DNA from: Leptolyngbya sp. PCC 6406
GTDB lineage: Bacteria; Cyanobacteriota; Cyanobacteriia; Phormidesmidales; Phormidesmidaceae
Length of the DNA stretch: 64,000 bases
Direction: 5' to 3'
Assembly: GCF_000332095.2 (NCBI RefSeq)
Contig: NZ_KI913949.1
Span: 4,091,882 to 4,155,881, forward strand
Position numbers and translations under genes: made by a program. Shown in pieces: positions 48,190 to 64,000 of this stretch. Under the pieces are notes generated by a model. That model was not told the origin of the DNA. It worked only from the letters and a program-made list of their open reading frames with translations, and did not search any database. Every line of letters starts with the position of its first letter. Position 1 is the stretch's first letter.

Positions 48190-50256
48190 CTATATGACAC
48201 TTGCTTGTAACATCTCGGAAGCACCGAAGTCTTTGCTGTAGAAGGATAAAGGCCAAATCGTAAGACCACAAGCATGTTTTTCTGCCAGAGGCTCCCATTT
48301 TATTGGCAAATTTATTGTATAGGGTTGTAGACTTCTCCATTGTGACTCAGATAAACTTTCAGAAAGTAGTAATTGGTCCATTAATTCCATGCCTTTTCCC
48401 CAAGGAACAAAAGCTGAAAATTGATGAGTATCTTCAATGATTTTAAATTTTTCCTCGACCTGTTCAAACTTTAAGTTACGACGCAAACTCTGAATTTCAT
48501 ACTTGTCACCAGAGAGGGCATCATAGCACTTGGAATAATACAGGGCAATCATATCCAGGAGATCGCTATTTAAATCGTGTGTTTTTAGAACTTCTTGAGT
48601 TATGTTGCTCCGAGCCCTGTAGTCACTAGATGGATAATTTGCACCATCTAAATTGAAAATCTGAACGACAGCATTTTGCCAAGGCAGTTTATTCTCTCGA
48701 TTACAGCGTCCAGATGCTTGAATTATGCTGTCTAGGGGTGCCATTTGACGTAATACCAAGGGGAAATCCAGATCAATTCCTGCCTCAACGACCTGAGTGC
48801 TAATCACGTGACATGATTGAGGGTTGCTAGGATCAAGACGGCGAAGAATTTCTTCTAGTACTTGCTGACGATGGGCAGGAACCATCCGTGCCGATAAATG
48901 AAACCAATTGCCGTCGATATTATCAGACAGCGACAAAAATCCTTCTTTTGAAAGTTTAGTAGTGTTGACAATTGTGAGTGATTGCTTGTTAGAAGCAATA
49001 CAGTCTATTAAATTAGGCCATTGCCAGTTGTCAAAACTAACTTTGTAGTTCACACGACGAGTTTGCTCAAAAAAATACTCGCATTTAGCATCAGAAATAA
49101 TGTCGATGCATTGCCGATCGAATTCTTTGTCGATATTTCTGAAACTAGGTTGGGTAGCTGACATCAAAAGAACTGAGCAACCCCAATCATCCACCAAGCT
49201 TCTTAAAACATCTAGAATTGGTCGAGCATATTCCAATGGAATCGTTTGTGCTTCGTCGATTAGAATGCAACGCCTCATTAAGTGGGAAAGTTTACGGCAC
49301 TTTGCTGGCGAGCGGGCAAATAAGGATTCATAAAACTGAACTCCAGATGTACAAATTACTGGCTTGTCCCATCGCTCAGTGGTAAGTTTGTAATCTGCTG
49401 CTTCCTCTTCCGAGGGCTGAAAATCACTGTAGTGGGCTAGAACAGGAACATTAAGTGCTTTGCAATAAACCTTCCATGTCTGGTCAATAACACTCTTGAG
49501 GGGGCCAACATACAAAATGCCTTCCAAATCAGTATTTGCTTGACAATGAGCGATCGCAAACTGGAGAGATGCCATCGTTTTACCTACTCCAGTAGGGCCT
49601 GTTAGCCGGAATAGCCCACGAGGTAATGCTGCTTTCGCCATACAATCAGCAGCAAACTCACGCCGTAACTCAGCAAGTGTGCCGTCAGAATGACGAGGAT
49701 TGAAACACGTGGAAAGTGTAGATATCAAAGACGCTCCGTTCGAGTCAGATGGAGCGATACCCGCAGCGTCAATCCGGTCTGCATCGACTAAACAACCAAA
49801 GAGCATCCGAATTGCTAGTTCTTGACGCTCCTTTCTCCGTCTTCCCTGAAAATTGAACTCAGGCAGCTCAACTGGCAAGAAACCAGCAATTTCTGCCACT
49901 GCCTCATCTTTGGCAGCTTCCCAATCTTTTGCACGTTCAGTAAAGTCATCTCCCTCAAGGTGTTGTTTGTCTCTCAACCCTCCATGATGCCCAGCGATCA
50001 CAAACGTTAGAGAGGGAACAGCCAATGGTCGCTTGGTTAGTGATCGAGCCAGCATAGCCCCATGTGGGCTGTGCGGCACTCTTCGCCCACCGTCTAGAAG
50101 ATAGTTCTGCCACTGTTGCAAAATTTTGCCGAGGTCATGCCACAGTCCCGCGTAGTAACCAACCTCCTTCCACTGGGGTGGGAGTCGTAAGGCTGTTTTG
50201 TCAGCTACACCAAGCAGATGATCTTTAAGTAACTGCCCTGGCCGCGCATATTTCAT
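48190..50256 (-). CDS. cas3: CRISPR-associated helicase/nuclease Cas3 (type I-C)
   Basis: Cas3 is recruited by the Cascade complex and degrades the target strand. The 688-aa protein has an N-terminal HD nuclease with AGLWHDLGKILQQWQNYL (about residue 36), HSPHGAMLA and FVIAGHHGG, then a superfamily 2 helicase. The helicase shows Walker A LTGPTGVGKTMASLQF (about 215), box II LIDEAQTIP (DEAQ rather than DEAH), SATQPSF, QVVEAGIDLDFPL and QASGRCNREN. It is somewhat shorter than many I-C Cas3 proteins. Unusually it points away from cas5-cas8c-cas7 instead of leading them. A 60-nt spot count gives about 47% GC, below the flanking genes. The C-terminus overlaps a toxin-antitoxin remnant. Confidence 0.95.
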   Translation of the reverse strand: MKYARPGQLLKDHLLGVADKTALRLPPQWKEVGYYAGLWHDLGKILQQWQNYLLDGGRRVPHSPHGAMLARSLTKRPLAVPSLTFVIAGHHGGLRDKQHLEGDDFTERAKDWEAAKDEAVAEIAGFLPVELPEFNFQGRRRKERQELAIRMLFGCLVDADRIDAAGIAPSDSNGASLISTLSTCFNPRHSDGTLAELRREFAADCMAKAALPRGLFRLTGPTGVGKTMASLQFAIAHCQANTDLEGILYVGPLKSVIDQTWKVYCKALNVPVLAHYSDFQPSEEEAADYKLTTERWDKPVICTSGVQFYESLFARSPAKCRKLSHLMRRCILIDEAQTIPLEYARPILDVLRSLVDDWGCSVLLMSATQPSFRNIDKEFDRQCIDIISDAKCEYFFEQTRRVNYKVSFDNWQWPNLIDCIASNKQSLTIVNTTKLSKEGFLSLSDNIDGNWFHLSARMVPAHRQQVLEEILRRLDPSNPQSCHVISTQVVEAGIDLDFPLVLRQMAPLDSIIQASGRCNRENKLPWQNAVVQIFNLDGANYPSSDYRARSNITQEVLKTHDLNSDLLDMIALYYSKCYDALSGDKYEIQSLRRNLKFEQVEEKFKIIEDTHQFSAFVPWGKGMELMDQLLLSESLSESQWRSLQPYTINLPIKWEPLAEKHACGLTIWPLSFYSKDFGASEMLQASVI

Positions 50257-50364
50257 AAAACTTTATGCCCTAGACGTACGCATGAACTAATATAGGCGAT
50301 ATTACTTTCGCCAGAACAGAAGAACTGATGGGCTGTATACATGGTTGCCAAGGAGGTGGGCTCT

Positions 50365-51063
50365 ATGAGCCATAAGCGACCTTATCGCATCAAAGTAGAA
50401 GGGAAATATGCTCTGTTTAGTCGCCCTGAAACGCAGGCAGAGCCGATCTCCTATCCCATCATGCCGCCTACAGCGGCGGAAGGTCTACTCGAAGCCATCT
50501 TCTGGAAGCCGGAATTCGACTGGCATATTTTAGCGATTGATATGCTTGAGCCAGTTCAGTATGCCAATTTCACTCGCAATCATATTAAAGATAGACAACG
50601 GCCTGGTAAAAGCGTCATTGCTAAGGATATGCGGGTTCAAACTCATCAGGCAGTTCTGAAGGATGTTGCCTATGTTATTGAGTGTGACATTCAATTGCGG
50701 TCTGAACTGACAGGCAATATTGGCAAGTATTGTGAACAGTTTGAGCGTCGTATGGACTCTGGAGGGTGTTTTCAGCAGCCCTTTCTAGGCATTCGGGAAT
50801 TTATGGCAGATTTTTCTTGGGCTACCGATGAGGACAGCCTTTGTTTGGATTACCGCGATTGTGGGCGAATGCCATTGAAGATTCATTACGTGCCTGATCC
50901 AGATGGACGTATTCAATGGCGCGATCGCATAACCCGTGAATATGTTCGAGGACGAGCTGAAACCGAATGGTTCGATGCGGAAATAAAAGCGGGTCGGTTA
51001 GTTGAAAAAGCTAGAGACACCCTGCCTTTACCAAGGCATCTGGTTACAAGTGGAGGTATCTGA
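50365..51063 (+). CDS. cas5c: Type I-C Cas5 (Cas5d), crRNA-processing endoribonuclease
   Basis: In I-C systems, which lack Cas6, Cas5d cleaves the pre-crRNA and stays bound to the 5' handle in Cascade. The 232-aa protein shows the family pattern: YRIKVEGKYALFSRPETQAE, SYPIMPPTAAEGLLEAIFWK, PVQYANFTRNHIKDRQRPG and QQPFLGIREFMADFSW. AAGGAGGTG six bases before ATG 50365 decides this start over the ATG at 50341. The stop codon overlaps the cas8c start (TGATG), so the genes are coupled. Confidence 0.95.
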   Translation: MSHKRPYRIKVEGKYALFSRPETQAEPISYPIMPPTAAEGLLEAIFWKPEFDWHILAIDMLEPVQYANFTRNHIKDRQRPGKSVIAKDMRVQTHQAVLKDVAYVIECDIQLRSELTGNIGKYCEQFERRMDSGGCFQQPFLGIREFMADFSWATDEDSLCLDYRDCGRMPLKIHYVPDPDGRIQWRDRITREYVRGRAETEWFDAEIKAGRLVEKARDTLPLPRHLVTSGGI

Positions 51064-52919
51064 TGTTAAGGGAGTTATATAGCCTTAGTCAGCATGTCGA
51101 AGAAGTATTGCCACCGATTGGATACGGCTTAGTTGAAGCGCATATTGCGATTAGTGTTGATCCTCCAGTCATATTCCTTCCCAAAGTTACAGAAGATTCA
51201 AAAGGGAAAGAACGGCTGGGTGAGAAGCTTTACTTGCCAGACTTTGTGAGATCAAGTAATCATCGGCCTTTAGCAGTAGCAGATACTGCTGATTATATTT
51301 TGGGAATTGGGAAACATGGTCTAATTCGTCGTCCCATGTATTTAGATCTGTTGAAAGAATGCCTCAATGAGACCCAAGATGAAGCCGTTGAGGCGGTATG
51401 GCAAGCAGTTCAAGAACTTGATGTCGAAGCGATACGTAAAAGCTGTAGCCCTTGGTTCGACAAAGGTGAACCTCTAGACAAAGTAAGAATCATCTTTATC
51501 TACAAAGGAGAACTAGTGACGGATCGCTCCTCTGTCCAAAAGTTTTGGGGGCGCAAGTTCACAGAACTTTTGACTTCTTGGGAGGTAAATGACTCAAAGA
51601 AAAAGAAGGCAAATAAGAATTTACTTCCTAATGCTGAACCACAAAGTTTTAGAGAAGGTATCTGTAGCATTACAGGCGATCTTAGACAGTTTGTTGGCCC
51701 CACCTTACCCGTAATGATCAAGGGCGTTCCCAACACTCAGGGCAAGGGTGCGGCATTGATGAGTTTCAACTGCGAGTCTTTTGAATCGCGTCAGTGGAAG
51801 GATTCAGAACACGCACCATTAGGGTTTGAGGTGGCAGAGCGATCGCATCAAATGCTGAATCGCTTACTACGAGAGAAAAGACATTCCTATCAGCAGGGAA
51901 AGACAAAGTTTGTCTACTGGGGAGAGTATGACACTGGGTTAAATCCAGATATTTGGGATAACCCAGACGATCTCTGGGATGACGATTCTGCCACAGTAGC
52001 GCAAATGATATTTATCAGCCCTGAGCAGCCCCAAGGATTTAGTACCGAGGCTTGTAAGTCTGAACGCTTTTACTTGGCAATCTTAACAGGATGTGACGGG
52101 CGAATTGCTATCAGTCGTTGGGATGAATTGACTCCTCAAACAATTGCCGATAACGTTACTCGCTATATTCAAACTCAAAAGGGAATTTCAGGTTACAGAG
52201 CTCGTCCGATTTGGCAATTGGCTGGTGCGTGCTTTCGTGATCCGGCTAAAGAGCAAGTTGATGGCGTTGTCCGAGCACTGGTGAATAATGCCTTGTGGGG
52301 AGCTGCAATTCCTGAATCTATTGTAAGACAAACGATTGAACGCATCTATCTTGACTTGTTTTCGGATAAGCGTGATTTAAAAAAGTATCACGGACGTTAC
52401 TATGCCCGTTTCCAAATTCTTGCTCTGTACTTAGGACTTATGACTGACAAACGACCTTTGGAAATTTCTCGTCGGCTTGGGGCCATTGCCTATCTTATGC
52501 ACCATGCTGAGATGAAAGCACGAAACCTAGATGATCCTGGGAAAACGGGTGTGGCAACCTCTTTAAGAGCACTGGCAACTACACCCAAGCAGGTATTCGG
52601 CAGACTGTATCAGAATGCGATTCTCTATCACTTGCCAGCGCCTTGCAAAGATGGAGAACCTCAAAAACAGGAATCACGTCGCCGTAATCTCAAGCGAACA
52701 GGAAAGTTGATACGTGAAGAATTTGGCAAGTTGGTGGAAATGAATTTATCTCCTGAAACCGACTTGCCGACTACTTTTAGCCTTGACGAAAGTGCTTGGT
52801 TTTATCTGGGTTGGGGAATGCGTGAAGCCACATTTTGGGATGGCGTTGAGAGTAATAAAAGCAACTCAAACGCTGTAGCCGATGACCAAGAAACCATGGA
52901 AACTGAGGACGAAAACTAA
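51063..52919 (+). CDS. cas8c: Type I-C Cascade large subunit Cas8c (Csd1)
   Basis: Cas8c recognises the PAM in I-C Cascade and in many systems also encodes, by internal initiation, a small subunit (Cas11c). The 618-aa protein begins MLRELYSLSQHVEEVLPPIG, the Csd1 start. It contains GEYDTGLNPDIWDNPDDLWD, the conserved middle region with RARPIWQLAGACFRD, and YYARFQILALYLGLMTDKRP and RLGAIAYLMHHAE in the C-terminal part. It overlaps cas5 and cas7 by single-base-shared start/stop codons. A 60-nt spot count gives about 42% GC. Whether an internal Cas11 start exists was not resolved; methionines around residues 470-490 (YLMHHAEMKA) would be in the right region. Confidence 0.94.
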   Translation: MLRELYSLSQHVEEVLPPIGYGLVEAHIAISVDPPVIFLPKVTEDSKGKERLGEKLYLPDFVRSSNHRPLAVADTADYILGIGKHGLIRRPMYLDLLKECLNETQDEAVEAVWQAVQELDVEAIRKSCSPWFDKGEPLDKVRIIFIYKGELVTDRSSVQKFWGRKFTELLTSWEVNDSKKKKANKNLLPNAEPQSFREGICSITGDLRQFVGPTLPVMIKGVPNTQGKGAALMSFNCESFESRQWKDSEHAPLGFEVAERSHQMLNRLLREKRHSYQQGKTKFVYWGEYDTGLNPDIWDNPDDLWDDDSATVAQMIFISPEQPQGFSTEACKSERFYLAILTGCDGRIAISRWDELTPQTIADNVTRYIQTQKGISGYRARPIWQLAGACFRDPAKEQVDGVVRALVNNALWGAAIPESIVRQTIERIYLDLFSDKRDLKKYHGRYYARFQILALYLGLMTDKRPLEISRRLGAIAYLMHHAEMKARNLDDPGKTGVATSLRALATTPKQVFGRLYQNAILYHLPAPCKDGEPQKQESRRRNLKRTGKLIREEFGKLVEMNLSPETDLPTTFSLDESAWFYLGWGMREATFWDGVESNKSNSNAVADDQETMETEDEN

Positions 52920-53797
52920 TGGAAGTTTATCTTGATCCAGCTAAGCGTCACGATGCTGTGCTGTTAGTAGATATCACAGATGGGAATCCCAATGGTGACC
53001 CTGATGCAGGAAATCAACCACGCATCGATCCGGAAACGCGACAGGGACTTATGACGGATGCTTGTATTAAACGCAAACTCCGTAACTACGTTCAAGTTGT
53101 AGGGGAAGGACAAGAAGGATTATCAATCCTAATTGAAGACGGTGCTATTTTGCGCGATCGTTTTCAACCCGCCTTTGAAGCAAATGAAGTTGAATATAAA
53201 GGTGGCAAAGGCAAAAAAACGTCTGCTGAACAGCAGGAGAAACTCTCTTCTTGGTTGCAGGAACGTTATTGGGACTTACGTATGTTTGGCGGGGTGCTTG
53301 AATCAGAGTTGCGAGCAGGCCAAGTATGGGGGCCTGTACAAGTTGGTATTGCGCGCAGTATCGATCCAGTCCTACCCATGACAATGACGATCACACGCTG
53401 TGCCAGTTCTAATCTCCAAGAAGGCAAAGACCAAAAGACAATGGGGAAAAAGGAACTCATTCCCTATGGGCTTTATCGTGCCTATATTACCTATAGTCCT
53501 CACCGCGCTCCTAGTAGTCTTACCAGCAATGACCTCAAGCTTTTATGGAATGGCTTCTGCAAGTGCTGGGATTTCGATCGCAGTAGTGTTCGTGGCTTTA
53601 TGAATTGCCGTGAACTAGCCATTTTTACCCATGAAAATAAGTACGGTAATGCTTCGGCATATAAGCTCTTTGAGAAGGTTGAAATTGAGAAGAAGCCTGA
53701 AATCGGAGTCCCCCGCAAGTTTGCCGACTACACCGTCACCGTCAACACCACCGACCTACCATCAGGAGTAACCCTCACCCGCCTTTGCGAAGGCTAA
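52919..53797 (+). CDS. cas7c: Type I-C Cas7 (Csd2), Cascade backbone
   Basis: Cas7 forms the helical filament along the crRNA. The 292-aa protein carries the family start VLLVDITDGNPNGDPDAGNQ followed by PRIDPETRQGLMTDACIKRK and LRNYV. A GVLESELRAGQVWGPVQVGI segment, then MTITRCASSN and KKELIPYGLYRAYITYSPHR follow, in the usual order. The ATG shares its A with the cas8c stop. About 50 bp after its stop the operon is interrupted by a Uma2 gene instead of continuing directly to cas4. Confidence 0.95.
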   Translation: MEVYLDPAKRHDAVLLVDITDGNPNGDPDAGNQPRIDPETRQGLMTDACIKRKLRNYVQVVGEGQEGLSILIEDGAILRDRFQPAFEANEVEYKGGKGKKTSAEQQEKLSSWLQERYWDLRMFGGVLESELRAGQVWGPVQVGIARSIDPVLPMTMTITRCASSNLQEGKDQKTMGKKELIPYGLYRAYITYSPHRAPSSLTSNDLKLLWNGFCKCWDFDRSSVRGFMNCRELAIFTHENKYGNASAYKLFEKVEIEKKPEIGVPRKFADYTVTVNTTDLPSGVTLTRLCEG

Positions 53798-53845
53798 TGG
53801 TACCCCTACCGCCGCCTGTCCCCTCAGCCTGGAGGAAGACTCCCA

Positions 53846-54454
53846 ATGATTGCTCAACCCCAGACCTCGCAACACTATTCCCCCAGTGATTATCTCGACC
53901 TAGAAGTCGCGTCAGAGATGCGTCACGAATATATCAACGGAGAAATCGTGCCCATGACAGGCGGCACCCCCAATCACAATCGCATTATTCGTAATCTCTG
54001 TACGGCGCTGACATTAGCAGTGCGGGGGCAAGCCTATGAAGTCTTTATCGCCGATCAGCGCCTCTGGATTCCAGATGCTCAAATTTACACCTACCCCGAT
54101 GTCATGGTCGTAGCCGGAGAGTTGACCTATCAGCCGGGGCGACGGGATACCCTGACTAACCCGCTGTTGATTGTTGAAGTGTTGTCCCCCTCTACCCGCA
54201 GTTATGACCGGGGCGACAAATTTGCCGCTTACCGCACCATCCCCACCCTGGCGGAATATCTACGGGTCGATCAATCCAGCTACCAAATTGAACACTATGC
54301 CAAAACAGGTGCAAAGCAATGGCTGCTGCAAGTCTACGATCAGCCGGAGACGACGCTACAACTCACAACGCTAGAGGTTGAGATCGCACTCACCGACATC
54401 TACGACAAAGTGCAATTTGAAGCCGCCCCCTCAGAACCCCCTGCTCAAAACTAA
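53846..54454 (+). CDS. Uma2 (DUF820) family nuclease-fold protein inside cas operon
   Basis: The 202-aa protein matches Uma2/DUF820, a PD-(D/E)XK-type family hugely expanded in cyanobacteria: YSPSDYLDLEVASEMRHEYI, NGEIVPMTGGTPNHNRIIRN, YPDVMVVAGELTYQPGRRDT, PLLIVEVLSPSTRSYDRGDK and YRTIPTLAEYLRVDQSS. The D...ExL core is present. GGAGGAAG lies just upstream of the ATG. The biological role of Uma2 proteins is not established. It sits between cas7 and cas4 in the same direction and could be read with either; position rather than sequence suggests insertion, since Uma2 is not a known I-C component. Confidence 0.92.
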   Translation: MIAQPQTSQHYSPSDYLDLEVASEMRHEYINGEIVPMTGGTPNHNRIIRNLCTALTLAVRGQAYEVFIADQRLWIPDAQIYTYPDVMVVAGELTYQPGRRDTLTNPLLIVEVLSPSTRSYDRGDKFAAYRTIPTLAEYLRVDQSSYQIEHYAKTGAKQWLLQVYDQPETTLQLTTLEVEIALTDIYDKVQFEAAPSEPPAQN

Positions 54455-54456
54455 AC

Positions 54457-54642
54457 ATGCAATTTATGCAAGTCAATAAAGCTCTGATCGACTCCCTCGG
54501 AGTGGCCAATACCCTGAGATTTTTACAGCAACTAGGGGTGGGCTACGGCGACTATACGCAAGAACGCCACCAGTGGCTTGACCCGTTATCTCTCGACGAT
54601 TTTCGTAACTACGTCAGAGGCAAGCAGGAGGATGCAAGATAG
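54457..54642 (+). CDS. 61-aa hypothetical protein paired with Uma2 gene
   Basis: The short protein starts two bases after the Uma2 stop, so it is tightly linked to it. It reads MQFMQVNKALIDSLGVANTL, then RFLQQLGVGYGDYTQERHQW and LDPLSLDDFRNYVRG. The helix, GxGDYTxER, W/LxxLSLDD pattern resembles small cyanobacterial proteins often found beside toxin-antitoxin-like or Uma2 genes; I know of no assigned function. An internal methionine (MQVNK) is an alternative start. It is followed by a stable hairpin and then cas4. Confidence 0.7.
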   Translation: MQFMQVNKALIDSLGVANTLRFLQQLGVGYGDYTQERHQWLDPLSLDDFRNYVRGKQEDAR

Positions 54643-54686
54643 CACCTTTACTTAGGACGCGAAGAACAAGGGTGCATTTTACTTCT

Positions 54687-54705
54687 CCCCCCTTTTCAAG
54701 GGGGG
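54687..54705. terminator. Stable hairpin between effector-side and adaptation-side cas genes
   Basis: CCCCCCTT (54687-54694), loop TTC and AAGGGGGG (54698-54705) form a very stable 8-bp stem, followed by another GGGGGG run. The CCCCCTTTTCAAGGGGG motif is a common cyanobacterial intergenic repeat. Here it could reduce read-through from cas7/Uma2 into cas4-cas1-cas2. No T-run is present. Confidence 0.5.
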
Positions 54706-54782
54706 ACTAAGGGGGGTGATGCAGGATGTTGCTCACCCCCACGGCGCTTAATGCTTACGGATGAACTTGGCGACAATTAACC

Positions 54783-55424
54783 ATGAGCGATGCGACTAAA
54801 TCCCCCGACGACTACCTGATGATCAGTGCCCTCCAGCACATGGTCTTTTGTCCCCGTCAGTGTGCCCTCATCCACCTAGAGCAGGTATGGGAAGAAAATC
54901 TCTACACCCTGCGAGGGCAGCGGGTTCACGAGAAAGTTGATGTGCCAGAGCATGAGCTAATCGAGGGCATACGGGTCGAGCGGGCCATGCCCCTGTGGTC
55001 GCACCGCCTGGGGTTAACGGGCATCGCCGACGTGGTCGAGTTCCTGGCCGATGGTACCCCCTACCCCGTGGAGTATAAATCCGGCTCTAAAAAAGCCCGC
55101 GAGGCCGATGATATTCAGCTCTGTGCCCAAGCCCTGTGTCTAGAGGAAATGCTGGGCTGTGCCGTGCCCCGTGGGGCGATCTTTCACCATGCTTCGCGGC
55201 GGCGGCGGGAGGTAGTGTTTGACGACGGGTTGCGATCGCACCTCCGAGCCACCATTGACGACCTGCGCGCCCTCCTGTCTCAAACCGCCCTGCCCCCGCC
55301 CGTTGCCGACAATCGCTGTCGCGATTGTTCCCTCCTTGAAGCCTGTCTACCCCATGCGCTTCAGGGGTTTGCGAACACCGCCCGCCGCAACAATCCCTTC
55401 GCGATCGCAGATTCTGCCCCATGA
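54783..55424 (+). CDS. cas4: CRISPR adaptation protein Cas4 (I-C)
   Basis: Cas4 trims prespacers and checks the PAM during spacer acquisition. The 213-aa protein starts with LMISALQHMVFCPRQCALIH, contributing the first Cys ligand. It then has the RecB nuclease core (RLGLTGIADVVEFLADGTPY, PVEYKSGSKK, DDIQLCAQALCLEEMLG) and ends with DNRCRDCSLLEACLP, giving the C-terminal Cys ligands of the 4Fe-4S cluster. Its last codon overlaps the cas1 start (ATGA). A 60-nt spot count gives about 52% GC, higher than cas8c. Confidence 0.95.
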   Translation: MSDATKSPDDYLMISALQHMVFCPRQCALIHLEQVWEENLYTLRGQRVHEKVDVPEHELIEGIRVERAMPLWSHRLGLTGIADVVEFLADGTPYPVEYKSGSKKAREADDIQLCAQALCLEEMLGCAVPRGAIFHHASRRRREVVFDDGLRSHLRATIDDLRALLSQTALPPPVADNRCRDCSLLEACLPHALQGFANTARRNNPFAIADSAP

Positions 55425-56452
55425 AGCAAATTCTCAATACCCTGTATGTGCAAACCCAGGGAGCCTACCTCCGTCTTGACCATGACACCCTCCAGGTGGA
55501 AATTGAGAAGCAGAAGGCGCTCCAAATGCCCTTGCACCATCTCGGTGGCATCACCGTGTTTGGCAATGTGTTGCTCAGCCCATTTTTGATTCATCGCTGT
55601 GCCGAAGATGGGCGATCGCTGGTTTGGCTGACGGAATATGGTCGCTTCAAGGGGCGTTTGGCGGGCAACACAACGGGCAATGTATTGCTGCGGCGATCGC
55701 AGCATGAAGCGTTGAACCAGGCGGCGGCAACCCTGGACATTGCCCGCTACGTAGTCGCCGGGAAACTGCAAAATACGCGCAATGTGTTGATGCGCGCAGC
55801 TAGGGAAGCGAAGGCAGAGTGCGATCGCAGTCAACTTGCCCAAGCCGCCGCCACCCACGCTGAAGCCATTCGCAACACAGAAAAAGTCGCCGATCTAGAC
55901 AAGCTGCGGGGCATTGAAGGCTATGCCGCCAAGGCTTACTTTGGGGCCTTCACCGCCATGGTGCGACAAAACCGGGATGTATTTGCCTTCACGGCGCGAT
56001 CGCGCCGCCCCCCCAAAGACCCGATCAACGCCCTCCTCTCCTTTGTCTACACCCTGTTGGTGAGCGAATGTGTCGCCGCCTGCGAAGGGGTAGGGCTAGA
56101 TCCCCAAATGGGCTATCTCCACGCTTTGCGCCCTGGTCGCCCTGCCCTAGCCCTGGATCTGATGGAGGAGTTAAGGGCACCCCTAGGCGATCGCCTAGTG
56201 CTCACCCTGATCAATCGCGGCCAACTGACCCCCGAAGATTTCATCGAACGCCCTGGGGGAGCGATTCATCTCACCAAAGAAGGTCGAGCGACTTTGCTGG
56301 CGGCCTATCAAAAGCGCAAGCAGGAGGAGGTTTTTCATACGGTGATTGATGCCAAGGTGCCCCTGGGTTTGATGTCCCATACCCAGGCCCGTCTCTTGGC
56401 CCGTCATCTGCGCGGTGATGTGCCAACGTATCAGCCATTCATTTTGCGCTAA
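55421..56452 (+). CDS. cas1: CRISPR integrase Cas1 (I-C)
   Basis: Cas1 with Cas2 integrates new spacers at the leader end. The 343-aa protein starts MKQILNTLYVQTQGAYLRLD, the I-C Cas1 start. It has an N-terminal beta domain and a C-terminal helical active-site domain with Glu166 (KLRGIEGYAAKAYFGAF), His234 (MGYLHALRPGRPALALDL) and Asp246. These correspond to the metal-binding triad. The gene is intact, contains several HIP1 octamers and reaches about 60% GC in a 60-nt spot count, like ordinary host genes. It is coupled to cas4 and followed by cas2 after 20 bp. Confidence 0.96.
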   Translation: MKQILNTLYVQTQGAYLRLDHDTLQVEIEKQKALQMPLHHLGGITVFGNVLLSPFLIHRCAEDGRSLVWLTEYGRFKGRLAGNTTGNVLLRRSQHEALNQAAATLDIARYVVAGKLQNTRNVLMRAAREAKAECDRSQLAQAAATHAEAIRNTEKVADLDKLRGIEGYAAKAYFGAFTAMVRQNRDVFAFTARSRRPPKDPINALLSFVYTLLVSECVAACEGVGLDPQMGYLHALRPGRPALALDLMEELRAPLGDRLVLTLINRGQLTPEDFIERPGGAIHLTKEGRATLLAAYQKRKQEEVFHTVIDAKVPLGLMSHTQARLLARHLRGDVPTYQPFILR

Positions 56453-56472
56453 TCCATTGGAGCAAAACAGCT

Positions 56473-56763
56473 ATGGATATCCTGGTCACCTATGATGTCA
56501 ATACTGAAACGAAGGCTGGGCAGCGCCGCCTGCGTAAGGTTGCCACAACCTGCAAAAACTATGGCCAGCGGGTTCAGTGGTCAGTATTTGAATGTCGGGT
56601 CAATCAGGCCCAGTATGAGACTCTAAGGGCGACTTTGGTCAGCATTATTGATCCCAAGTTAGACAATCTCCGGTTCTACAAGCTCCCTGGTCCCCGCGAG
56701 AAATATTTTGAGCAGTTTGGCATTGATCACTACAGGGATTTTGATGAACCGCTGATCCTCTAG
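56473..56763 (+). CDS. cas2: CRISPR integration factor Cas2
   Basis: The 96-aa protein has the ferredoxin-like Cas2 fold: first strand MDILVTYDVNTETKAGQRRL with the conserved Asp8, then VATTCKNYGQRVQWSVFECR and a NLRFYKLPGP strand. It forms the central dimer of the Cas1-Cas2 integration complex. The C-terminal YFEQFGIDHYRDFDEPLIL is typical for I-C. It is the last cas gene; its stop is 173 bp before the first repeat. Confidence 0.96.
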   Translation: MDILVTYDVNTETKAGQRRLRKVATTCKNYGQRVQWSVFECRVNQAQYETLRATLVSIIDPKLDNLRFYKLPGPREKYFEQFGIDHYRDFDEPLIL

Positions 56764-56936
56764 ACCATCCGCGAACCCTTAGCACTGCTTCGATCCCTAG
56801 GGGGTTCGCGTTCCTTATCTATCAAGCGTTTCAGCAGTTTTTGACGATGATGATGGGTTGTCTGGGTTCTAAAAGTTGGGGGTTCGCGCCAGTAATGGCT
56901 AGGATGCGCTCCCAGCAAGGGTTTGGTATACTCGCA
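56764..56936 (+). promoter_or_regulatory. CRISPR leader with inverted and direct GGGTTCGCG motifs and -10 box
   Basis: CGCGAACCC (56770-56778) is inverted as GGGTTCGCG (56802-56810), and the 11-mer GGGGGTTCGCG (56800-56810) recurs at 56878-56888. TATACT (56927-56932) is a good -10 element ending four bases before the first repeat, so pre-crRNA probably starts within repeat 1. The -35 match is weak. The leader lies on the cas2 side, consistent with the degenerate repeat at the opposite end. Confidence 0.7.
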
Positions 56937-59222
56937 CCAGCGCCCAGCCTCCAGGCTGGGTGAGGATTGGAACGAGCTAAAACCGTCAGTTTGCGCGGGC
57001 TTAACCCCGCCCCAGCGCCCAGCCTCCAGGCTGGGTGAGGATTGGAACCCGATCTCCCGTGCAGTCCTGGCGCACAACCCGCCCCAGCGCCCAGCCTCCA
57101 GGCTGGGTGAGGATTGGAACTTAATCGAAAGGTATCGCCTTGATCACCAGCGTTGTCAACCAGCGCCCAGCCTCCAGGCTGGGTGAGGATTGGAACAGAA
57201 GTTAAATCCCACGACCCCTACCGGATCCGACATCCAGCGCCCAGCCTCCAGGCTGGGTGAGGATTGGAACTACAGTCCCCATTTGGCTTGGGTTCCAGGG
57301 TAAAAGCCAGCGCCCAGCCTCCAGGCTGGGTGAGGATTGGAACCCAATGCATCTAGCTCAAGCCCAAAGTGCTGAAAAGCCAGCGCCCAGCCTCCAGGCT
57401 GGGTGAGGATTGGAACTCATATCCCGAGATCACTACCGCTCCTTGCAACCCCAGCGCCCAGCCTCCAGGCTGGGTGAGGATTGGAACAACAGAGCGGCAA
57501 ATGAAAGGCGATGACCCTGACTACCCAGCGCCCAGCCTCCAGGCTGGGTGAGGATTGGAACCAGATTTGTTGGTATTGATAGGCAACGGTCAGCATCCAG
57601 CGCCCAGCCTCCAGGCTGGGTGAGGATTGGAACCCCCCTGATATCCCATGCGCTCCATAGGAATATCCCAGCGCCCAGCCTCCAGGCTGGGTGAGGATTG
57701 GAACTGAACTGCTGTAATCGATGCCCCCTGCTCGATCCCAGCGCCCAGCCTCCAGGCTGGGTGAGGATTGGAACAGCTTTTGAAGCTAGTTAATGGCTAC
57801 CTAAAGAACACCAGCGCCCAGCCTCCAGGCTGGGTGAGGATTGGAACTGGTAATCGAGAGGGGATATTTATTGACATCAGATCCAGCGCCCAGCCTCCAG
57901 GCTGGGTGAGGATTGGAACAGAACATGCAACCCCTAGACCATGCCTCTGGGACGCCTAGCCAGCGCCCAGCCTCCAGGCTGGGTGAGGATTGGAACTGCA
58001 TAGCGAAGTGACCCATCAGGCCGTTTTCTCTGCCAGCGCCCAGCCTCCAGGCTGGGTGAGGATTGGAACGCCAATCCCAGGATGGTGGATACCCTCCGCA
58101 CGCCAGCGCCCAGCCTCCAGGCTGGGTGAGGATTGGAACGCTCAAGATCTCTGCTGCTTCGGAGGTGGCACCCCAGCCAGCGCCCAGCCTCCAGGCTGGG
58201 TGAGGATTGGAACAAGCGGCGCACATCGCCCCATGAGGAGTGGATTCCAGCGCCCAGCCTCCAGGCTGGGTGAGGATTGGAACAAAGACTGGCTAGCCTC
58301 TACGCCCTATCGGGATCCAGCGCCCAGCCTCCAGGCTGGGTGAGGATTGGAACCTGCAATTGCAGAAATCTCTGCCGATGCCCAGCTACCAGCGCCCAGC
58401 CTCCAGGCTGGGTGAGGATTGGAACCCCGAACAATGGCACCCTGCGGTGGTGTACGCGCCAACCAGCGCCCAGCCTCCAGGCTGGGTGAGGATTGGAACC
58501 ACCGATGGTTGCCCGTGGCACTCCAGAGGGGGTCTAGCCAGCGCCCAGCCTCCAGGCTGGGTGAGGATTGGAACACAACGTCATTGCCGTCTCTGATCTG
58601 AAAAGACCCACCAGCGCCCAGCCTCCAGGCTGGGTGAGGATTGGAACTATCCATTTGCCGTGTAAAATCCCGCGATTATAACCAGCGCCCAGCCTCCAGG
58701 CTGGGTGAGGATTGGAACTCATCCAACACCGCATAGGTCACGCCAGGGGGTGGGGCCAGCGCCCAGCCTCCAGGCTGGGTGAGGATTGGAACCGGATGAT
58801 GAGGATTTGGTTGCGGCGACCATTGCCCAGCGCCCAGCCTCCAGGCTGGGTGAGGATTGGAACTTTGACGCTATGGACACCGCTGGCGCTGGCATTTGCC
58901 AGCGCCCAGCCTCCAGGCTGGGTGAGGATTGGAACCTAGGGATGCTCCTCTACGTGCTCATCTACATCGTCCCAGCGCCCAGCCTCCAGGCTGGGTGAGG
59001 ATTGGAACCGCACAACAACCCGGCAACGATCGCAACGCGGATACCAGCGCCCAGCCTCCAGGCTGGGTGAGGATTGGAACGGTCTCTGGGGGAATGCTGC
59101 CCGCGCCACAGTTCCAGCGTCCAGCCTCCAGGCTGGGTGAGGATTGGAACTAGCATCAGATAAGCCTCTGTCAGGTCGCTAGTTGCCAGCACCCAGCCTG
59201 GAGGCTGGGTGAGGGTTGGAAC
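56937..59222 (+). CRISPR. Type I-C CRISPR array, 32 repeats, 31 spacers
   Basis: The 37-nt repeat starts CCAGCGCCCAGCCTCCAGGC and ends TGGGTGAGGATTGGAAC. It is palindromic in the middle (CCCAGCC-TCCA-GGCTGGG, 7-bp stem) and ends ATTGGAAC where most I-C repeats have ATTGAAAC. First repeats start at 56937, 57012, 57084, 57160, 57234; the last at 59044, 59114 and 59186. Spacers are 33-40 nt. Repeats 1-30 are identical; repeat 31 has one change (GCGTCC). Repeat 32 has several changes (GCACCC, loop TGGA, GAGGGTTGG), marking the old trailer end. Open frames through the array (a SAQPPGWVRIGT-like peptide on one strand) are artefacts. No spacer source could be identified. Confidence 0.99.
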
Positions 59223-59275
59223 AGTACACCCATGCTCAAAGAAGCGGGGACATTCCCCAGCCCCTTAATCGAACC

Positions 59276-59785
59276 CTATCCGTTGCGGCGCTTCAGGGCA
59301 AGACCTGTACCCGCTGCCACCACCGAACCTAGGATCATCATGGGCTCAGGCACGCTAACCTCAGGCGTATAGTCGCGGGTGTAGAGGGACAGGTGGGATA
59401 GGGTAGGTTGCTGTCCGCCTTGATTCGTAATACCGACGGTAGACCAGTTGATGACAGAGATGTCATCCGTTAAATACAGGGTGTAGCTATTGGCAGCCTT
59501 GACAGAAAAGGCCCCAGCCCCGGTCAACCCCGTAGACCAGATTCCATCCTTAGTGGTGGTACCCCCCGACAAAAAGGTGCCGAATCCTTCATCAGACTTA
59601 CCTACCAAACTCCAAGGGCCAGGAGCTGCCAGGGTATTAAGGTTGGTAATGGCGGTTCCTGTGGCACCAGTATCATTGCCGCTAAAGGTACCCAAAAGGG
59701 TAGCAGCGGAAGCAGACATGGCCGAAAGGGAAACGATGCTGGCGGTCAGAACGGAAGTGCCAAGCAAAGCAGCAATTGTTTTCAT
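59276..59785 (-). CDS. PEP-CTERM sorting-domain protein
   Basis: The 169-aa protein has a signal peptide (MKTIAALLGTSVLTASIVSL to ASA, about residue 27). The mature domain is serine/threonine/glycine-rich (about 28-135), and the PEP-CTERM tripartite end is VPEPMMILGSVVAAGTGLAL KRRNG: the VPEP motif, a membrane helix and a basic tail. Such proteins are cut by exosortase (EpsH/Crt type) and exported to the surface or matrix; the exosortase is not in this window. AAGGA precedes the ATG. It points toward the array and lies between the array end and a CRISPR remnant. The function of the mature part is unknown. Confidence 0.88.
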   Translation of the reverse strand: MKTIAALLGTSVLTASIVSLSAMSASAATLLGTFSGNDTGATGTAITNLNTLAAPGPWSLVGKSDEGFGTFLSGGTTTKDGIWSTGLTGAGAFSVKAANSYTLYLTDDISVINWSTVGITNQGGQQPTLSHLSLYTRDYTPEVSVPEPMMILGSVVAAGTGLALKRRNG

Positions 59786-60265
59786 AGAAGTGTCCTTCTC
59801 ATTACGCGAGTTATCTTCTGGGTGAGGCTACGGTTCTAGAGACCTAGTACTTTTCGGCATAAGCCTTGTCACCGATATGTCCACCCTGCGGGAAGAGCAT
59901 AGACGCGAAGCGGCTACCTCTACATCCCCTTTCTTGAATGCCGTCAGGCTATACTCCTTTTCCCAGAAAGGGAGAAGGGAAGCCGAACGGTGAGGTCCAA
60001 CCGGGTGGGAATTTATGCGAAGTAATACTAGTGTGTTAGTAGTAAATATTCTCCATATCAGTACGTAAAGAGTGTCATTGCCGATTTCACGGAATCTTCT
60101 TCATGAACTATGAGCACCCATACAAGTGGGATTGCTACCAGTAGAAGGCCATGTTCTTTACGGGATAAGTCTTTGAGCCCCTCAGTTTCCTCGATTAATA
60201 TCCCCTCACCCCCCATACTCACCTCACTAAAGCCTGATGATTCCCCCTAGGGGAGAGTGTTCCAA
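59786..60265. other. Gene-free stretch upstream of PEP-CTERM gene
   Basis: No supportable gene. It must hold the leftward promoter of the PEP-CTERM gene. It includes an AT-rich segment at about 60000-60070 (AATACTAGTGTGTTAGTAGT) and a small CCCCTAGGGG palindrome at about 60245. No repeat copies were seen until 60266. Confidence 0.5.
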
Positions 60266-60374
60266 TCAGTGCCCAGCCTACGGGCTAGGTGAGGATTTGA
60301 GCAGCGATTTGGATATCAGGCGATCGCCCAGTTCTAATCCTCACCCAGCCTGGAGGCTGGGTGAGGATTAGAAC
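60266..60374 (+). CRISPR. CRISPR remnant: degenerate repeat, 35-nt spacer, repeat forming a 44-nt palindrome
   Basis: 60266-60302 aligns to the 37-nt repeat with 7 mismatches. 60338-60374 aligns in the same orientation, also with 7 mismatches, and shares the CACCCAGCCTGGAGG variant with the last repeat of the main array. The 35 nt between fits a spacer. The spacer's last bases (GTTCTAA) and the second repeat together make a perfect inverted repeat 60331-60374, with 21-bp arms ending AGGATTAGAAC around a GG centre. It lies about 90 bp upstream of ispH. Confidence 0.85.
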
Positions 60375-60461
60375 ACAAGTACCCTAGACAGAAATTAGGC
60401 CCCCCAGTGTGATGCGTACCCAGATATCCTAGGTAGGGAATAGCTGCCGCCCAGGAGCGTC

Positions 60462-61682
60462 ATGGATACCAAAGCATTTAAGCGATCGCTGCATCAATCC
60501 GACAAATACTTCCGCAAAGGCTTCGGTCATGATGAAGACGTGGCCGACCAAATGCAGACAGAATACAACAGCAGCCTGATTCAGAAAATCCGTGATCACA
60601 ATTACGTCTTCACCCAGGGACAGGTGACCATTCGACTAGCCAAAGCCTTTGGCTTTTGTTGGGGCGTCGAGCGGGCAGTAGCCATGGCCTACGAAACCCG
60701 CCAGCATTTTCCCAGCGAACGGATTTGGATCACCAACGAAATCATTCACAATCCCGGCGTCAACCAGCGTCTGCGGGAGATGGATGTCCACTTCATTGAA
60801 CTGGTAGATGGTCAAAAGGATTTCTCCGGCGTCGGGCCAGGGGATGTGGTGATTCTGCCCGCCTTTGGGGCCAGCGTCCAAGAAATGCAGTTCCTCAACG
60901 ATCGCGGCTGCACCATCGTCGATACCACCTGTCCTTGGGTCTCCAAGGTGTGGAATACAGTGGAAAAGCATAAAAAGAAGGCCCACACCTCCATCATCCA
61001 TGGCAAGTACGCCCACGAGGAAACCGTCGCCACCAGTTCCTTTGCCCAGACCTATCTGGTGGTGTTGAACCTAGAGGAAGCCCAGTATGTGGCGGATTAC
61101 ATCATGCAGGGGGGCGACCGAGAGGAATTCCTGACTAAGTTCCGCCATGCCCACTCGGAGGGCTTTGACCCCGATCGGGACTTGGAGCGCATCGGCATCG
61201 CCAACCAAACCACGATGCTGAAGGGGGAAACCGAGGCCATCGGTAAATTGTTTGAGCGCACCATGCTGCAAAAATATGGCCCCCAAGCCCTGAACGACCA
61301 TTTTCTTGCCTTCAACACCATCTGCGACGCCACCCAAGAACGCCAAGACGCCATGTTTGAGTTGGTGGATGAAGCGGATAAAACGGTGGACTTGATGCTA
61401 GTGATCGGCGGCTACAACTCCTCCAACACCACCCATTTACAGGAAATCGCCATCGACCGCACCATTCCCTCCTACCACATCGATGGGCCAGAGCGGATTG
61501 GTCCCGGCAACCGCATCGAGCACAAACCCCTCCACGGTGATCTCACCGTGACGGAAAATTGGCTCCCCCCTGGACCAATCACCGTTGGCGTCACCTCCGG
61601 AGCCTCTACCCCCGATCGTGCTGTAGAAGTTGCGATCGCACGCATCTTTGAGCTCAAGGCCGCCCCCGTCCCTGTGGCATAG
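60462..61682 (+). CDS. ispH: 4-hydroxy-3-methylbut-2-enyl diphosphate reductase
   Basis: IspH catalyses the last step of the MEP pathway, giving IPP and DMAPP for carotenoids, phytol and quinones. The 406-aa length is the cyanobacterial/plant type with an N-terminal extension. The 4Fe-4S cysteines are in [28 protein letters not shown] and [16 protein letters not shown]. Substrate-binding histidines are in [13 protein letters not shown] and [16 protein letters not shown], and the conserved SSNTTHL is near residue 330. AGGAGCG precedes the ATG. A CRISPR-derived palindrome lies just upstream and could be within its promoter or leader. Confidence 0.97.
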
Positions 61683-61737
61683 TCCATCCTTTTGGCTAGC
61701 CCGCGAGGATGAGACCAATGTCTGCGGGGAAAAGACG

Positions 61738-61922
61738 ATGACCCAGACTAAGGTGAAGCTTGCCTCCTTTGAGACGTATCTCACCTACAGCTTCCTGATC
61801 TCGTCGTATTACGCCAAGAGCATTTAGAACTGACCCAACGACGACTGACCATTACCCTAGACATGCCACCCCCGCGCCTGATTGCAGAAGTCGAAATCTG
61901 TAGTCTTATAGCGGTTCCCTAA
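61738..61922 (+). pseudogene. Uma2 (DUF820) pseudogene with internal deletion
   Basis: ATG 61738 opens MTQTKVKLASFETYLTY, the N-terminus of a Uma2 protein. After a deletion the next frame reads PDLVVLRQEHLELTQRRLTI followed by TLDMPPPRLIAEVE, the central domain, then a stop at 61920-61922. About 60 central residues and the C-terminal half are missing. Confidence 0.75.
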
Positions 61923-61950
61923 TAGATGAGGTACAGCTCAACTTGATGGC

Positions 61951-62013
61951 AATTCGGGGAACAAGGGGCTTAAGCCCCTTGCCTGTACTTAACCCGAGTG
62001 AGAAGCACTATAT
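61951..62013. repeat. Dispersed palindromic repeat family B, copy 3
   Basis: AATTCGGGGAACAAGGGGCT, then the TTAAGCCCCTT palindrome half, CCTGTACTTAACCCGAGTGA and an AGCACTATAT tail. It closely matches the copy at 29865-29926. A TATAGCGGTTCC segment at about 61910 is the complement of the usual tail. The rest of 61683-62128 shows no intact gene. Confidence 0.85.
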
Positions 62014-62128
62014 TTCGGAGAATTGGTATAAAGGGGCGGGCGGCACTGGGCTGTGCACAGGACTGTATCAGCCCAGCAGCAGTTGACCTAGTGACAGAGA
62101 CTCCGCCGCCACCTAAGGCTACGGGGGA

Positions 62129-62614
62129 TTATGGGGCTAGAAGGAGTTCTGGGGGTAGTTCTAGAGAGGCAAAGGGGGAACCGCTCTTCATCACCAAATC
62201 GGTCACAGAAACAATACCCAACAGGGTATTACTTTGGATTACCGGAGCCCGTTGAATCCCCGTGTCTGCAAAGATCTGGGCGGCAGCTTGCAGGCTGAGA
62301 GAAGGCTCCATCGCGATGCAGGGCTGGCGCATGATGTCATGGACCCTCACCCGCTGAGGATCTAGACCCCGAGCAAAAACTCGGTAGACAATGTCGCGCT
62401 CAGTGATGATGCCGTAGGGAGTCTGGTCACTGGGGCGCTCGACAATTAGCGATCGCACGCCATAGTCCTGCATCTGAGCGATAGCCATCGCCACACTGGC
62501 ATCGCGGTTAATCATCTGCACCGTCGTTGTCATAACATCAACGACCGTGGCCTCGGCCTTAGCGACCGTCCCTGAAACTGTCTTTGTTGCTGGATGTGCG
62601 ATCGCCCTACCCAT
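62129..62614 (-). CDS. CBS-domain pair protein
   Basis: The protein consists essentially of two CBS domains. The first runs VVDVMTTTVQMINRDASVAM through GVRSLIVERPSDQTPYGIIT to ERDIVYRVFARGLD. The second runs VHDIMRQPCIAMEPSLSLQA through GIQRAPVIQSNTLLGIVSVT to DLVMKSG. Tandem CBS modules bind adenine nucleotides and regulate partner proteins. ATG 62614 is chosen because GGAGAGG lies just upstream; the frame also opens at 62680. The length is 161 aa. No catalytic domain is attached and no clear partner gene is adjacent; ndhO and mutM lie upstream on the same strand, separated by about 160 bp. Confidence 0.88.
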   Translation of the reverse strand: MGRAIAHPATKTVSGTVAKAEATVVDVMTTTVQMINRDASVAMAIAQMQDYGVRSLIVERPSDQTPYGIITERDIVYRVFARGLDPQRVRVHDIMRQPCIAMEPSLSLQAAAQIFADTGIQRAPVIQSNTLLGIVSVTDLVMKSGSPFASLELPPELLLAP

Positions 62615-62774
62615 AACCCGACCTCTCCCTATAAATTGCACGTTAAAGTGTGCGCTAAGGCACACCTCTAGTGTCTCCATTCTCGTGAGACAAGGTCAGT
62701 CCGTCGGGCTTTTGGGCAAAACTTTGTAGCTTTTGGAGACCTTCCGTCATAGAAAAGCTATCAGTCGTCCAGAC

Positions 62775-63005
62775 TCAGGAGCCCACATCAAACTTTTCAA
62801 GCTGATCAAGCCGTAGCCAAATATTGGGGGTCGGAACGTGGCCAAAGTTCACCAGCGCGTAGTCTGCGCGGGTTTCAACAATCTCACCCCTAGTTTCAAA
62901 CAAATAGGGGGGAAAACGATTGTCACTGGCCTTCGCCTCTACGCTATTGGCCAACTTTTCCTGAATCGCCCGGACCAAATCGCCCCGCTTAAATGTGCCC
63001 GCCAT
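62775..63005 (-). CDS. ndhO: NAD(P)H-quinone oxidoreductase subunit O
   Basis: NdhO is a small stromal/cytoplasmic subunit of the photosynthetic NDH-1 complex involved in cyclic electron flow. The 76-aa protein reads [60 protein letters not shown] and LDQLEKF. This matches the cyanobacterial/plant family over its whole length, including [13 protein letters not shown] and [13 protein letters not shown]. The gene lies about 50 bp after mutM on the same strand, which may be a joint transcription unit. Confidence 0.96.
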
Positions 63006-63057
63006 AGTATTCCTTCAGCCCAAGTAAACCGTCATTAATTACTGCATTGTAGAACCT

Positions 63058-63906
63058 TTAGCGCTGGCAACTGGGGCAGTAATGGGCCGATCGTCCCCCT
63101 AATTTGAGGCGCTGAATCGTTGTCCCACAGATACGACAGGGTTCGCCATCACGCCCATAGACCCAGGCCACACCACCATAATTGCCGTTGATACCCTGAA
63201 CATTACGAAAGTCGCTAAAGGTAGTCCCCCCCGCCTCAATACTGTCATGAAGCACCCTACCAATGGCTGCATGGAGTTTGGCTATACGAGGACGCCCTAA
63301 ATGCTTACAGGGGACCTGGGGGCGAATGCCGCTGATAAACAGAGCCTCATCAGCATAAATATTGCCAATCCCCGCCACCAAGGATTGATCCAGCAAGGCA
63401 TTTTTGATGGGGCGCAGCCGATGGCGCGTCGCCTGGTAGAGATAGTCCACAGAAAAGGACTCGCTGAAGGGCTCCGGTCCCAAAGCCGCCATGCCCATCA
63501 TCACCTGCTCCGGCCTTTGTTCCGGGGAAATCCACCACATCCGGCCAAAGGTGCGCTGATCGACAAAGCGCAATTCGCAATTTTCCGGGAAAAACAGCCG
63601 CACCCGACAGTGGCTAGTCACGGGTTCCGTCGCCTTCTCCCAGAGGAGTTGACCCGTCATCCGCAGATGTACCCCCAGCCATCCCGCTGCTATCCCCGCT
63701 ACCGTCTCTAATTCTGCTAGAAGATACTTGCCACGCCGTCCCCAATGGATAACCTGCACGCCCGTCATCCCCGCCAAAAAGCCATCAACTGATTCAGGGT
63801 GGGCAATAGTGCGCGGTAGCAACACCGCTCCCCCCGCTATCGGTTGGTGTAGCGTTGCTTGATTCAGACCTCGACAAACCGTTTCAACTTCTGGAAGTTC
63901 TGGCAC
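63058..63906 (-). CDS. mutM: Formamidopyrimidine-DNA glycosylase
   Basis: MutM (Fpg) excises oxidised purines such as 8-oxoguanine and nicks the strand. The 282-aa protein starts MPELPEVETVCRGLNQATLH, giving the catalytic Pro2 and Glu3 after Met removal. It has the GRRGKYLLAEL lysine region, VGIGNIYADEALFISGIRPQ (helix-two-turn-helix) and the C-terminal zinc finger CRICGTTIQRLKLGGRSAHY with CPSC. Full length and intact. The next gene on the same strand is ndhO. Upstream of the start the window ends in a family B repeat. Confidence 0.97.
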   Translation of the reverse strand: MPELPEVETVCRGLNQATLHQPIAGGAVLLPRTIAHPESVDGFLAGMTGVQVIHWGRRGKYLLAELETVAGIAAGWLGVHLRMTGQLLWEKATEPVTSHCRVRLFFPENCELRFVDQRTFGRMWWISPEQRPEQVMMGMAALGPEPFSESFSVDYLYQATRHRLRPIKNALLDQSLVAGIGNIYADEALFISGIRPQVPCKHLGRPRIAKLHAAIGRVLHDSIEAGGTTFSDFRNVQGINGNYGGVAWVYGRDGEPCRICGTTIQRLKLGGRSAHYCPSCQR

Positions 63907-63970
63907 ACCTGCAATCGCCTATCGTGCGAAGTTCAATCGTGGAGCCTGTTTTGTCAGGCCATCAGCCAGG

Positions 63971-64000
63971 GATATATAGCGGTTCCCACTCGGGTTAAGT
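63971..64000. repeat. Family B repeat tail, inverted, cut by window edge
   Basis: ATATATAGCGGTTCCCACTC followed by GGGTTAAGT is the reverse complement of the ACTTAACCCGAGTG...GAACCGCTATAT tail of the family B element. The palindromic core should lie just beyond the window. Confidence 0.75.

Follow-up and report, generated by a model that had tools for sequence, protein, structure and literature searches.

The second of two degenerate CRISPR repeats that lie, outside the array, beyond the leader-distal end of the type I-C array in Leptolyngbya sp. PCC 6406 has probably been rewritten by one intermolecular template switch, which would have converted a decayed repeat and the end of the spacer in front of it into a perfect 44-nt palindrome. 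The feature is most likely a new instance of known processes, viz. a minor but clean mutational fossil and not a regulator. Our analyses were centered on a stretch of 64,000 nt (referred to here as the window) from this genome, which comprises 5.78 Mb in three contigs.

Locus Organization

The features of the locus that are relevant to this work, with their positions in the window, are as follows:

48190-56763, both strands: type I-C cas locus with a complete gene set
48190-50256, minus strand: cas3 of the type I-C cas locus
within 48190-56763, plus strand: cas5c, cas8c, cas7c, cas4, cas1 and cas2 (in this order) of the type I-C cas locus
56937-59222, plus strand: type I-C CRISPR array (32 repeats, each 37 nt long), following the cas genes
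59186-59222, plus strand: terminal array repeat with the loop GG, from the comparison of repeats
59276-59785, minus strand: gene for a small PEP-CTERM protein, between the array and the remnants
60259-60302, plus strand: 44-nt imperfect palindrome of element 1, its right 37 nt being the first degenerate repeat
60266-60302, plus strand: element 1, degenerate repeat (30/37 identity to the array repeat)
60303-60337, plus strand: remnant spacer of 35 nt, its last 7 nt being part of the mirrored arm of element 2
60331-60374, plus strand: 44-nt perfect palindrome of element 2, its right 37 nt being the second degenerate repeat
60338-60374, plus strand: element 2, degenerate repeat (30/37 identity to the array repeat)
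60425-60432, plus strand: conserved -10-like box of ispH, TATCCTAG, from an alignment of nine upstream regions
60462-61682, plus strand: ispH, 4-hydroxy-3-methylbut-2-enyl diphosphate reductase (NF009911, 692 bits)

The 37-nt array repeat, CCAGCGCCCAGCCTCCAGGCTGGGTGAGGATTGGAAC, is itself an imperfect inverted repeat with the stem CCCAGCCT/AGGCTGGG. Repeats 1-30 of the array are identical, the 31st carries one change and the terminal repeat (CCAGCACCCAGCCTGGAGGCTGGGTGAGGGTTGGAAC) carries four; the period of the array is 70-77 nt and its spacers are 33-40 nt long. A gene that precedes the cas locus is located far from ispH in those relatives that allow its placement, and the PEP-CTERM gene has no ispH neighbor in the relatives compared. 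Positions 59881-59985, just upstream of the remnants, belong to a dispersed intergenic repeat with a hairpin around TTTTCCCAGAAAGGGAGAAGGG, which has dozens of relatives in the same genome and in genus-mates.

The Two Remnant Repeats and Their Palindromes

A preliminary description of this DNA had reported two degenerate repeats in the orientation of the array, 35 nt apart and about 1.04 kb beyond it, and our comparisons bear this out. Each of them is identical to the array repeat at 30 of 37 positions, compared with 2 to 15 in neighboring registers, and the pair begins 1,043 bp past the end of the array in the same orientation, with a start-to-start distance (72 nt) and a spacer (35 nt) that both fall within the ranges of the array. 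Cores of the repeat with at most two mismatches occur 34 times in the window, where 0.03 are expected. Both elements thus appear to be type I-C CRISPR repeat remnants, an assignment that is supported by their repeat-derived sequence, by an orientation and spacing which are those of the array, and by the location of that array beside a complete set of I-C cas genes. The spacer between them (60303-60337) includes the cyanobacterial HIP1 octamer GCGATCGC (GGCGATCGCC).

The perfect palindrome of element 2, GTTCTAATCCTCACCCAGCCT-GG-AGGCTGGGTGAGGATTAGAAC, occupies 60331-60374 and has a GG loop; as previously described, the end of the spacer mirrors the repeat, which results in perfect arms of 21 bp. 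It is the longest perfect short-loop hairpin of the window (the runner-up has 16 bp), and its predicted RNA fold has an energy of -38.3 kcal/mol (z -10). When the mirrored left six bases are set aside, element 2 is identical to the array repeat at 28 of 31 positions and two of the three differences are the inverted loop. Element 1 has a 44-nt imperfect palindrome of its own, which the preliminary description overlooked; it is in the same register as that of element 2 and folds over its full length (-18.1 kcal/mol, z -3.0). At the left end of the palindrome of element 1 stands GTTCCAATC, which reproduces the last nine bases of the array repeat in exact reverse complement and has no other copy on the plus strand of the window.

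Origin of the Perfect Palindrome

Seven positions distinguish element 2 from the array repeat, viz. four of its first six bases, the two loop bases (CC to GG) and one base of the tail (G to A). The first six bases mirror the tail of the element itself, and the A of the tail is paired by a mirrored T in the other arm. The mirroring of its own tail is complete across the 13 outermost positions of the element (13/13), compared with 2 to 7 such positions in the 32 repeats of the array. Homogenized arms with an inversion of the bases between them are known products of intermolecular template switching at short inverted repeats (PMC8604942), and quasipalindromes are hot spots of template-switch mutation in Escherichia coli (PMC7202029). 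In the sequence of events that we infer, the tail change from G to A came before the switch. At the stem of the repeat, a replicating polymerase would then have moved to the complementary strand, synthesized the left arm against the right arm of that strand, and returned to its original template. In this single switch, the final 7 nt of the spacer and the initial 6 nt of the repeat would be overwritten with the reverse complement of the 3' tail of the repeat, so that the changed tail base was mirrored as well, and the 2-nt loop would be inverted (CC to GG); the product would be a perfect palindrome of 44 nt.

One switch of this kind accounts for both the 13-nt mirrored tract and the inverted loop, and hence for six of the seven differences of element 2, so that it becomes needless to suppose that perfection was kept despite decay; apart from this event, element 2 is just one substitution away from the array repeat. 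Element 2 combines two features, viz. a continuous mirror tract that reproduces the other arm in reverse complement and the loop inversion (GG for CC) which intermolecular switching predicts, a combination that element 1 does not cleanly display. The gene-conversion event that had been suggested earlier for this palindrome finds support here if it is understood as template switching, i.e., quasipalindrome correction. The unmirrored state that would have preceded the switch was not found in the relatives examined, and the array repeats serve as the sole stand-in for the ancestor.

The weakest point of this reading is element 1, in which the outer nine bases alone are mirrored and the four inner bases, AGTG, resemble the CAGCG of the repeat itself, a pattern that one simple switch does not give. 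Element 1 is probably an earlier, incomplete version of such a switch, and it may represent a partial switch that began at a chance match further out. Related I-C repeats (L091, L092, and L093) have UNCG-type loops (UCCG, UUCG), and the loop of element 1 is UACG (60279-60282), as against UCCA in the array of the window; element 1 may accordingly descend from an older version of the repeat. The terminal repeat of the array has its loop inverted in the same way and carries in addition an A that completes its stem. The same A is present in the I-C repeat of a genus-mate (CCAGCACCC) and may therefore be ancestral, which leaves the loop as the only argument for a switch in the terminal repeat. The loop variant that element 2 shares with the terminal repeat, pointed out in the preliminary description, is indeed GG in both, and the loop of element 2 could thus have come from this variant repeat, leaving the 13-nt tract alone to be explained.

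The same product, loop GG included, would result from a head-to-head fusion, in which an inverted and a forward copy of the repeat recombined via their shared stem, the left half of the result being reverse and the right half forward. Such a fusion, which would also explain the presence of GTTCYAATC at the left end of both elements, should however have lost the array-like spacing of 72 nt and the 35-nt spacer. Element 1 moreover retains the CAGTG of the forward repeat, and all other exact array-type repeats nearby share one orientation. We therefore regard a fusion as unlikely and favor the template switch.

Relation to ispH and Possible Functions

The two elements both fold over their full length, and the palindrome of element 2 is located 88 bp ahead of the essential gene ispH. 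These observations could be taken to indicate that selection keeps the hairpin as a regulatory or protective RNA or DNA element before ispH, or as a terminator on the side of the array. However, the hairpin has no T-run and no terminator call, our consensus scan revealing neither a terminator nor a sigma-70-like promoter near the palindrome, and no known RNA family reached its gathering threshold in 54000-64000. Nine upstream regions of ispH, including that of the window, align on a TATYCTAG box about 30 nt before the start codon. This likely -10 box of ispH (60425-60432) lies about 50 bp downstream of the end of the palindrome at 60374, and an ispH mRNA started from it would exclude the hairpin. 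The proposal of the preliminary description that a long hairpin forms in the RNA in front of ispH is thus unlikely to hold for the ispH transcript. The hairpin is also absent at ispH in relatives: upstream of ispH in 29 of them, including three genus-mates, no repeat-like sequence was detected (best local scores of 7 to 13, compared with 44 here), and the congeners examined have neither the remnant repeats nor the palindrome at this position.

The preliminary description had further suggested selection on the grounds that the palindrome is perfect while the repeats have decayed. This argument is weakened by the single event that gives six of the seven differences, and also by the frequency of perfect hairpins in this genome. 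In a sample of 16 stretches of 20 kb each (320 kb in total; loops of at most 4 nt), we counted five further perfect hairpins, whose arms measure 20 to 26 bp, or about one hairpin of at least 20 bp per 64 kb; one of the five overlaps a long frame, and the other four lie clear of frames of 150 codons. This count is irrespective of the origin of the hairpins, and it makes a perfect 21-bp hairpin unremarkable here, so that selection cannot be read from perfection alone. A selected hairpin, for which there is no positive evidence, is in our view very unlikely, and since nothing points to a current function we infer that the hairpin has none.

CreA units, which contain degenerate repeats within CreTA modules (PMC9458426), have the same anatomy as the two remnants and their spacer, and a complete I-C effector is encoded nearby. 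The remnants might on this basis be viewed as an ectopic CreA- or CreR-like guide, whose repeats and spacer yield a crRNA-like RNA by which the I-C effector is directed to a promoter in the chromosome. We consider this highly improbable. Targets of the spacer were searched for at full length within the window and with its first 18 nt alone across the genome, and neither search identified a target in which PAM and seed are both plausible. No site in the window matches more than eight leading bases of the spacer, those sites in the window that are preceded by TTC match at most 8 of its first 12 bases, and the matches to its first 18 nt in the genome, the element itself aside, are at the level of controls. 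The 3' side of the second repeat would in addition be sequestered in the long stem.

Occurrence in Other Genomes

The possibility that the palindrome belongs to a dispersed repeat family with no relation to CRISPR, which the preliminary description had itself raised, can practically be dismissed, for while the genome does hold dispersed intergenic repeats (e.g., around 59881-59985), the 44-nt form is represented by a single copy in this genome and by none in 58 relatives, and its core is otherwise found in the array only, except for one two-mismatch hairpin. A REP/MITE-type family, which would be present in many copies, is hence excluded for this genome, where the palindrome is single-copy. 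Apart from the array, our genome search found the core at this locus only, the exception being the two-mismatch hairpin at C1:5022515. A viral origin was also considered and rejected: neither the repeat-core pattern nor the initial 21 nt of the spacer has an exact match in viral contigs, and matches in phages are at chance level only.

Searches of GTDB contigs, a set that may omit the genome of the window itself, for mirrored repeats retrieved one unrelated hairpin from a Bacteroidota MAG. The exact form GTTCCAATC..GATTGGAAC was found in none of 386 genomes of the phylum, a pattern which element 2 itself escapes due to its G to A change. In I-C arrays with related repeats from three other genomes (G049, G127, and G192), the stretches examined are free of mirrored repeats and of repeats with an inverted loop.

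Two other loci are recorded here as separate observations. In another cyanobacterium (L094:10850-11620, G227:C110), I-C-type repeats of 36/37 and 29/37 identity surround one exact repeat, forming a solo or degenerate ectopic group with no array within the 20 kb examined. In the MAG of a genus-mate (L117, L121; G002:C364), the I-C cas1 reads as two pieces that overlap (identities of 73% and 87%), a TGA being present in one of them, and the repeats at the end of the contig have small indels.

Significance and Comparison with Known Systems

The locus shows how the inverted-repeat nature of a disused CRISPR repeat can feed a known mutation mechanism, and it cautions that a perfect palindrome beside an essential gene need not signal selection. 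A broader proposal is that template switching at repeat hairpins recurrently turns the repeats at the trailer end into long hairpins, which can become ectopic RNA elements. Three neighboring candidates for such switching (viz. the terminal repeat, element 1, and element 2) are present here; since mirrored repeats are absent from the other genomes searched, recurrence is argued from this one locus, and we consider the proposal quite unlikely. If it held at trailer ends in arrays elsewhere, it would amount to a testable path by which array repeats become ectopic ones.

The remnants resemble the CreA of CreTA (PMC9458426) in that two degenerate repeats beyond the array flank one spacer, and differ from it in that no target with a PAM and seed was found here and no creT-like gene was recognized. 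They are similar to the degenerate CRISPR repeats of trailer ends in their location beyond the leader-distal end, in their array orientation, and in their array-like spacing and spacer length. Unlike these, they sit inside 44-nt palindromes, and 1,043 bp with a PEP-CTERM gene lie between them and the array. In the open-access literature we found no account of template-switch correction in CRISPR repeats. With quasipalindrome correction (PMC8604942; PMC7202029) the locus shares the conversion of an imperfect inverted repeat with a short loop into a perfect one, the arms being homogenized and the loop inverted in one step; however, while the known cases are from genes and reporters, the correction proposed here runs from a CRISPR repeat into its spacer.
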